Positions 16,805 to 18,781 of a stretch of DNA of 64,000 nt are shown piece by piece. The notes under the pieces were generated by a model that worked only from the letters and a program-made list of their open reading frames with translations, had not been told where the DNA came from and did not search any database. The position numbers were made by a program, and so were the translations under genes. Numbering within the stretch: position 1 is the stretch's first letter; each line of letters starts with the position of its first letter. The DNA is from Terriglobales bacterium (GTDB lineage Bacteria > Acidobacteriota > Terriglobia > Terriglobales > Acidobacteriaceae): assembly GCA_035624455.1 (NCBI GenBank), contig DASPRM010000025.1, forward strand, positions 62,001 to 126,000. The letters are read 5' to 3'.

Positions 16805-17992
<1,188 letters not shown>

Positions 17993-18002
17993 GGAGTGAG
18001 CA

Positions 18003-18155
18003 ATGCCGCGAGAAATTGTGACCTTGCAATGCAGTGACTGCAAGGAAAAGAACTATTCGACGACAAAGAACCGGAAGACGACGACCGAGCGGCTGGAGTT
18101 CAAAAAATTCTGCCGCCGTTGCCGCAAGCACACGCCGCACAAGGAAGTGAAGTGA
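18003..18155 (+). CDS. rpmG: 50S ribosomal protein L33
   Basis: A 50-residue protein, [20 protein letters not shown] onward, ending [16 protein letters not shown]. Two Cys pairs (CSDC and CRRC) make it the zinc-binding C+ form of L33. It starts 10 nt after the tuf stop and precedes tRNA-Trp and secE, the classical place for rpmG. The 190 nt between it and the tRNA contain repeats. Confidence 0.95.
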
Positions 18156-18186
18156 CGCCGTTTGGCAGGCGTCTGAGCCTGCAGGC

Positions 18187-18210
18187 GTCATCCTGAGCGC
18201 AGCGAAGGAT
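18187..18210 (+). repeat. Dispersed repeat end fragment
   Basis: GTCATCCTGAGCGCAGCGAAGGAT, the left-end consensus of the dispersed intergenic family, directly before the duplicated tRNA fragment. Confidence 0.6.
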
Positions 18211-18213
18211 GGC

Positions 18214-18245
18214 GGAAAAACAGGGGCGTAAGCTCAACGGTTAAA
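18214..18245 (+). pseudogene. Duplicated 5' end of tRNA-Trp (tRNA fragment)
   Basis: These 32 nt are identical to 18338-18369, which cover eight bases upstream of tRNA-Trp and its first 24 bases (acceptor 5' strand and most of the D arm). After this point the two copies diverge completely, and no matching acceptor 3' strand follows within tRNA distance. It is therefore a truncated tRNA copy and not a second gene. The two copies are 124 bp apart. Confidence 0.8.
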
Positions 18246-18284
18246 TGACCGCGATTTCCGCGGCGTTTGAGCCGCGGGCGGTCA
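18246..18284 (+). other. Strong two-part hairpin beside the tRNA fragment
   Basis: TGACCGC (18246-18252) pairs with GCGGTCA (18278-18284), and inside it CCGCGGC (18258-18264) pairs with GCCGCGG (18271-18277) around a GTTTGA loop, leaving a 5-nt bulge on one side. It joins directly to the duplicated tRNA 5' end. No U-run follows, so it is not a standard terminator; it may be an RNA processing signal or part of the mobile repeat. Confidence 0.6.
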
Positions 18285-18320
18285 CCCTGAGCGGAGCGAA
18301 ACGCAGTCGAAGGGCCTCAG
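18281..18320 (+). repeat. Dispersed repeat fragment, copy next to tRNA-Trp
   Basis: GTCACCCTGAGCGGAGCGAA followed by CGCAGTCGAAGGGCCTCAG. Both end motifs of the dispersed family are present but with almost no interior, so this is a short version of the element. Confidence 0.6.
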
Positions 18321-18345
18321 TCGTGAGCGGCTCTTCAGGAAAAAC

Positions 18346-18421
18346 AGGGGCGTAAGCTCAACGGTTAAACTGCCGGTCTCCAAAACCGGACTTGGGGGTT
18401 CGAATCCCTCCGCCCCTGCCA
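18346..18421 (+). tRNA. trnW: tRNA-Trp (anticodon CCA)
   Basis: Acceptor stem AGGGGCG (18346-18352) pairs with CGCCCCT (18411-18417); discriminator G at 18418; CCA is encoded at 18419-18421. The anticodon stem CCGGT/ACCGG encloses the loop CTCCAAA with anticodon CCA at 18380-18382. The T arm is GGGGG-TTCGAAT-CCCTC. The D stem AGCT/AACT has one C-A mismatch. The tuf-rpmG-tRNA-Trp-secE order is common in bacteria, which supports the assignment. Confidence 0.97.
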
Positions 18422-18520: not shown

Positions 18521-18781
18521 ATGGCGAAAGCAGCAACAGTCCCAGCAATCCGGGAAGGCGGTTTTAACGCAATCAAGGCGTGGCCGCAGCGGATCAAGTC
18601 GTTCTACAACGACGTCCGCACGGAGATGAAGAAGGTCACCACACCCACTCGCAAAGAGGTACAGGCGACGACCACAGTCGTGATCATCGCCGTGTTTCTC
18701 TTCGGACTTTATTTCTGGATCGTGGATACCGCCATCGGCAAAACCATGGATCAATTGCTCCGGTATCTCGTAGCGCGTTAG
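18521..18781 (+). CDS. secE: Preprotein translocase subunit SecE
   Basis: Small essential subunit of the SecYEG channel. The 86-residue protein has the single-TM bacterial layout: an amphipathic helix with the conserved [20 protein letters not shown], then one membrane segment ([20 protein letters not shown]). The start is ATG at 18521 with AGAAGGG 5 nt upstream; a GTG at 18485 would add 12 residues without such a site. nusG follows after 11 nt, the usual pair. Confidence 0.95.

Follow-up and report, generated by a model that had tools for sequence, protein, structure and literature searches.

Between rpmG and secE of the window, by which we mean the whole stretch of 64,000 nucleotides analysed here, a short bulged hairpin element (18246-18314) lies between two copies of the 5' part of tRNA-Trp. 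We consider it on balance probable that this element is a copy of a mobile, non-coding family of hairpins whose units bring with them a patch of gene end. The locus is arranged as follows.

16805-17992: tuf, in the gene order tuf, rpmG, tRNA-Trp, secE, nusG of the window
18003-18155, + strand: rpmG (ribosomal protein L33), from its open reading frame and translation
18153-18210, + strand: element copy 1, a hairpin TGACGCC..GGCGTCA (18153-18190) and then the tail TCCTGAGCGCAGCGAAGGAT, from pattern matches and a fold of -12.3 kcal/mol
18214-18245, + strand: left copy of the 32-bp repeat, made of the leader GGAAAAAC and tRNA-Trp nucleotides 1-24, truncated in the D-loop (TTAAA|)
18246-18284, + strand: bulged hairpin of element copy 2, from its fold; the architecture covaries in 142 canonical copies
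18285-18314, + strand: tail of element copy 2, CCCTGAGCGGAGCGAAACGCAGTCGAAGGG, in agreement with the family consensus
18315-18337, + strand: spacer between element copy 2 and the right repeat copy, belonging to the inserted 92 bp
18338-18369, + strand: right-hand repeat copy (32 bp), running on into the intact tRNA
18346-18421, + strand: intact tRNA-Trp (CCA), from ARAGORN and Rfam RF00005 (39.4 bits)
18521-18781: secE, followed by nusG

The repeated sequence, GGAAAAACAGGGGCGTAAGCTCAACGGTTAAA (32 bp), was found at 18214-18245 and 18338-18369 with no mismatch and a spacing of 124. It consists of an 8-nt leader and tRNA nucleotides 1-24, and it is the sole exact repeat of at least 20 nt within 1 kb in the whole 64-kb window. 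These data bear out a preliminary description of the locus, which had reported 32 bp including 24 nt of tRNA-Trp occurring twice 124 bp apart, with a bulged hairpin directly after the truncated copy. This hairpin (18246-18284) has a 7-bp outer stem, a 5-nt bulge on the 5' side, a 7-bp inner stem and the loop GTTTGA, and its DNA fold has an energy of -16.6 kcal/mol (z -4.9). The same description had placed ends of a dispersed repeat on both sides of the half-tRNA. Such pieces are indeed present (18189-18209 and 18283-18314), but the left one is not the far end of a single insertion: it is found there because a second, separate and complete hairpin of the same family (18153-18210, at the end of rpmG) ends at this point, the piece being its second half. 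The element proper is thus restricted to 18246-18314, between the two tRNA copies. The final bases of rpmG form the junction with element copy 1 (AAG|TGA), and no gene-end duplication was found for this copy.

Comparison of the tuf-secE interval in relatives revealed neither the duplication nor the element in 28 of the 29 family members inspected, the best chance match to tRNA nucleotides 1-24 upstream of their tRNA-Trp being 15/24. Among 398 genomes of the family, the tRNA-Trp junction was detected in four (G000, the genome to which the window itself belongs, and G003, G377 and G413), which belong to three genera, and always directly before tRNA-Trp. G003, G377 and G413 all have the hairpin too, and none of the relatives found with the duplication lacks the repeat. 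G003, a member of another genus, has at least three half-tRNA and hairpin units in tandem, joined at TTAAA|TGACCGC as in the window. Over 52 nt, the G000 and G003 elements show 94% identity, as compared with 64% for their secE genes. Short tandem duplications are common and the assembly of G003 is fragmented, with a contig ending within the array, so that a chance or slippage duplication or an assembly error, free of any mobile element, had to be envisaged. Four genomes from three genera share the junction, and about 60 analogous sites exist at many genes, which makes this explanation scarcely credible; it is refuted by recurrence, and the independent occurrences exclude an assembly error at the site itself.

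Two minor features were noticed at this locus. In many relatives (L012, L015, L018-L024, L026, L028, L029, L031, L033 and L035), the gap between rpmG and tRNA-Trp holds other palindromic repeats, which belong to several unrelated families and are accompanied by no tRNA duplication. The tRNA-Trp of G413 contains an 18-bp internal tandem duplication (L121:1316-1352), which caused ARAGORN to miss it. Either this tRNA is broken or the assembly is at fault here, the bin having 9% contamination.

Further copies of the element were found via the hairpin core GGCGTYTGAGCC, and the family was counted with the pattern TTGAGGCGNNTNNNNGGCGTYTGAGCC, allowing up to 2 mismatches. It is present in 107 of the 398 genomes and in 42 of the 79 genera of the same bacterial family, whereas the reversed control pattern gave almost no matches. 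The nearest named relatives by tuf sequence indicate that these soil bacteria belong to Acidobacteriota/Terriglobia. Its consensus is approximately TTGAG(G/C)CGNTTNNNNGGCGTCTGAGCCNNNNG(C/G)CGAAATCC(C/T)GAGCGNAGCGA(G/A)GGA. In 92-95% of 142 canonical copies, the stem columns given as N form pairs, via G-C, C-G, A-T and T-A, with covariation at five stem columns; when the partners were shifted by one or two columns, pairing fell to 18-55%. Since pairing is kept through switches between these four pairs, it is the structure that is conserved and not the letters. On its left side the element has a sharp junction (AAG|TTGAG or AAC|TTGAG, and TTAAA| for the window copy): position -3 is A in 97% of the canonical copies and position -1 is G or C in 90%. 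This sharpness is common to copies with and without a gene-end duplication, and the element is also found at non-gene sites. Tandem arrays are common and occur at tRNA-Trp, tRNA-Ser and infA. The insert length is mostly 57-105 bp, and is 92 bp in the window.

The sequence of the left flank was then sought to the right of the element, within about 330 bp, in 146 distinct copies. With a score of at least 13, 61 of them have the gene end duplicated beside the hairpin. With a score of at least 14, the duplication is found in 60/146 copies, as against 2/431 with mismatched flanks and 11/430 when the left anchor was moved upstream in the same loci. No near duplication is seen in 85/146 copies, more than half, and just two more distant ones came to light in 35 stretches that reached up to 20 kb. 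The duplicated stretch measures 14-76 nt in the non-tandem cases, its right copy runs straight on into the intact gene or, in a tandem array, into the next unit, and it often stops at a gene border (ATG, tRNA 3' end). Among the targets recognised by their sequence are tRNA 3' ends lying antisense to the element (T-arm junction GAAC|TTGAG), tRNA-Gly, tRNA-Trp and a tRNA-Ser-like 5' part, and 5S rRNA. In protein genes, the first codons are affected; the examples are tuf, infA, dnaJ, mnmG, a gene resembling atpA whose product starts with MAQIKADEITK, and a permease of ABC-transporter-like type (MRFELFVASRYLRAKRRQ). Except for dnaJ and the permease, whose orthologues were collected by search, the genes were named from reading their translations. 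Beside the 5S rRNA gene, an insertion point (..GGTAAGATCACCGACAAC|TTGAG) recurs in several genera (L171, L210, L250, L265, L298 and L313). The footprint of a repeat-associated duplication, as the tRNA-Trp locus had been interpreted, is therefore correct as one case of a family-wide phenomenon.

In the protein-coding targets, the two versions of a gene end are frequently not identical. The mismatches at codon positions 1, 2 and 3 number 10, 3 and 51 (51/64 at the third position), and 48 of the changed codons are synonymous and 7 non-synonymous. In G003, the two dnaJ ends differ at 14/57 nt, as much as the dnaJ genes of separate genera do (8-18), and none of the 29 other dnaJ loci fetched contains the element. 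In G141, three serial ends of the permease gene are 8-10/54 nt apart in pairwise comparison and encode an identical protein; the two intervening element copies resemble each other more closely than the ends do. Just three matches to this gene exist in the G141 genome, all in the one locus, and the element is absent from the 29 other permease loci examined. As the ends have diverged synonymously and nearly all relatives are devoid of the insertion, the copies are older than the insertion, and one of the gene ends is then probably foreign. The simplest account of these sequences would be that one end arrived with the unit from another lineage. Neither the 29 orthologues of dnaJ nor the 29 of the permease pointed clearly to a donor of the foreign ends, and the nearest relatives did not separate the native end from the incoming one.

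These results bear on the possibility of an ordinary transposition event whose target-site duplication would be exceptionally long, staggered cuts 20-75 bp apart being repaired in place. Such an event would restore an essential gene in one step, and it agrees with the 32/32 identity of the window copies, leader included, which a local duplication fits equally well, and with several tRNA and coding-sequence copies identical over 24-49 nt. It does not agree with coding copies that differ synonymously (10/3/51) as much as genes of different genera do, nor with the absence of the dnaJ and permease insertions from the other loci examined, and the neutral decay of a copy made in place would not be expected to stop at a gene border such as the ATG or the tRNA 3' end. 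We therefore hold this explanation to be improbable, and the word 'duplication', used in the preliminary description of the tRNA locus, misfits the family if taken to mean a local copy: the ends of protein genes had accumulated their coding-sequence differences before being brought together. In the window copy a foreign patch could not be recognized in either case, because nucleotides 1-24 of tRNA-Trp are nearly invariant in the relatives read.

The truncated end and its hairpin could also be a selected regulatory device, duplicated locally and acting as a tRNA-half decoy, a processing competitor or an upstream mini-ORF. In the minimum-energy RNA fold of 18214-18421, the left AGGGGCG pairs with the 3' acceptor strand of the tRNA, and divergence of the coding fragments by synonymous changes only could reflect selection on the fragment. 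From this one predicted RNA fold among many, it is conceivable that the half-tRNA would interfere with tRNA-Trp maturation. Fragments kept locally for a long time are nevertheless contradicted by their old divergence combined with a sporadic presence (4/398 genomes for the tRNA-Trp unit), and the fragments come from unrelated genes and in both orientations, the tRNA 3' ends being antisense to the element. A device of this kind is accordingly very improbable.

At least one insertion, and probably a second, carries a cargo. In G026 (L399, G026:C12), the 3' end of tRNA-Pro is repeated (24/24 nt) about 1.8 kb apart, and within the insert of about 1.7 kb lie copies of the hairpin together with a gene that matches Phosphoesterase of Pfam (4.6e-82). 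In G023 (L407, G023:C74), a weaker duplication (17/20) at tRNA-Ala is associated with an insert of about 1.4 kb with a Lactonase-match gene. No integrase gene was detected in these two inserts, and no cargo between distant duplications was seen in 20 further stretches devoid of a near duplication. Since the T-loop and the anticodon loop of tRNAs are classical integrase sites, the elements might be remnants of integrase-driven islands or prophages, the repeats being attL and attR, the cargo having been deleted and the hairpin representing a conserved end. Insertions at such tRNA sites, the cargo cases at tRNA-Pro and probably tRNA-Ala, serial foreign ends resembling island accretion, and the presence of the element on two IMG/VR contigs are compatible with this origin. 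We regard it as unlikely all the same: an integrase usually has one attB whereas one hairpin is found here at many unrelated genes (tRNA, 5S, CDS starts), the narrow insert length (mostly 57-105 bp) is not the scatter of decayed islands, the two cargo inserts were read and contain no integrase, and the element also occurs at non-gene sites. No more than these two viral-classed contigs (L397:6333 and L398:5933) were found with the element and neither bears a tRNA gene, and a phage origin was rejected on these grounds; one of the two copies stands directly after a stop codon at the contig end. A search for a plasmid origin of the element gave no match.

In the preferred reading, that of a mobile hairpin bringing a gene-end patch, the element would move among related genomes and enter at AAG|- or AAC|-like sites (TTAAA| in the window), very frequently within the end region of a conserved gene. 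Its insertion would supply the hairpin and a second complete version of the target gene end, so that the gene would stay whole and the old end would persist in truncated form on the opposite side of the insert. The moving unit would be composed of the hairpin, sometimes a cargo, and the gene end, joined at gene-end|TTGAG, with an intermediate that is probably a small circle or single-stranded. Units may originate in related strains and be mobilised in trans; the one in the window would have entered tRNA-Trp at nucleotide 24/25. In essential genes, a unit would survive solely where its patch matches the gene, and if only cognate units leave survivors, patch and target would match without any sequence-guided homing.

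Either a recombinase or an HUH-like transposase acting on single strands would be a suitable mover. The analysis found no mobilising enzyme, which counts against the patch reading, as do the many copies lacking a near duplication. Genes of RAYT type (Y1_Tnp) were seen in 30/30 genomes rich in the element. They also occur in 23/29 element-free genomes, and no element lies within about 1.5 kb of Y1_Tnp at the 20 loci inspected; a RAYT/Y1 transposase was rejected as the driver for these two reasons.

Prophages, ICEs, genomic islands and other integrative elements target tRNA genes or gene ends, the gene being reconstituted with sequence from attP. The hairpin family resembles them by the gene-end direct repeats flanking the insert, the restored gene and the tandem accretion, and differs by inserts of mostly 57-105 bp and by a single hairpin serving many genes; no integrase was seen in the two cargo inserts. 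Bacterial MITEs (RUP, NEMIS, ERIC, Nezha) are likewise small, non-autonomous and dispersed. They are bounded by terminal inverted repeats and duplicate a short target of fixed length, whereas the hairpin family has a single hairpin, placed at the left end, shows no further inverted end in its consensus and has gene-end copies of 14-76 nt. Integron attC core sites (R'' RYYYAAC, R' GTTRRRY) were not seen at the hairpin foot when the consensus was inspected by eye.

REP and REPIN sequences are mobilised by RAYT (TnpA-REP) transposases and form families of GTAG- or CGTC-tagged palindromes (PMC3733652, PMC3116915, PMC8266576). Like them, the present family is made of short non-coding, imperfect and bulged hairpins that are dispersed, mostly extragenic, sometimes tandem and conserved in structure, and Y1 transposase genes occur in the same genomes. 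It differs in that it starts with TTGAG (or TGA) with no GTAG or CGTC foot, CGTC being found at the loop only (142-copy consensus), and in that the inspected RAYT genes are not flanked by it. To our knowledge, REPs neither restore gene ends nor carry gene-end copies or cargo. In Torulaspora and Lachancea yeasts, each integration of a WHO element replaces the 3' end of FBA1, and repeated events build clusters (PMC7282813). Together with the integration of islands and phages, these elements are the closest in mode of working, by their conserved-gene target, the different (divergent) end supplied and the serial integration; they are however yeast genes that encode an endonuclease and have one target, whereas the hairpin family is non-coding, bacterial and directed to many tRNA and protein genes. 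Its inserts encode no intein- or HO-like endonuclease, as 57-105 bp are too short. Fungal mitochondrial introns are reported to swap part of the host gene for a carried fragment (PMC7315562). Introns differ in being spliced and in usually encoding a homing endonuclease.

A full-text literature search, covering few subscription papers, found no description of this hairpin family, which we take for a new small non-autonomous mobile DNA with a fair chance of being a class of its own. More specifically, we put forward as a tentative proposal that protein-free hairpin cassettes with an essential-gene end patch, and sometimes a cargo, recombine across species borders, swap core-gene ends and record serial replacements, a class with no known counterpart. 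Essential genes do not normally admit insertions; in the present family, tRNAs, 5S rRNA, tuf, infA and dnaJ are entered by a very small element that encodes nothing, and they stay intact because it brings a replacement end. If true, this would be a previously unnoticed route for the exchange of core-gene pieces between species, would explain unexpected mosaicism at core-gene ends and would point to a recombination enzyme acting on hairpins. The arrays of former gene ends left behind can be compared and ordered. A clustering of the elements by target gene across genera (p 0.05-0.07) is only suggestive.

The G000 genome showed two further features. At loci L131-L151, a second and larger dispersed repeat, CTGTGGGTGCCCCATCCTGAGCGCAGCGAAGGGTGGG, is present with the core CCTGAGCGnAGCGAAGG in common and no TTGAG hairpin. 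At L003/L173 (G000:C111:34594) and L134 (G000:C61:5958), more copies of the hairpin lie beside tRNA-Ser-like 3' ends, accompanied by degenerate gene-end fragments.
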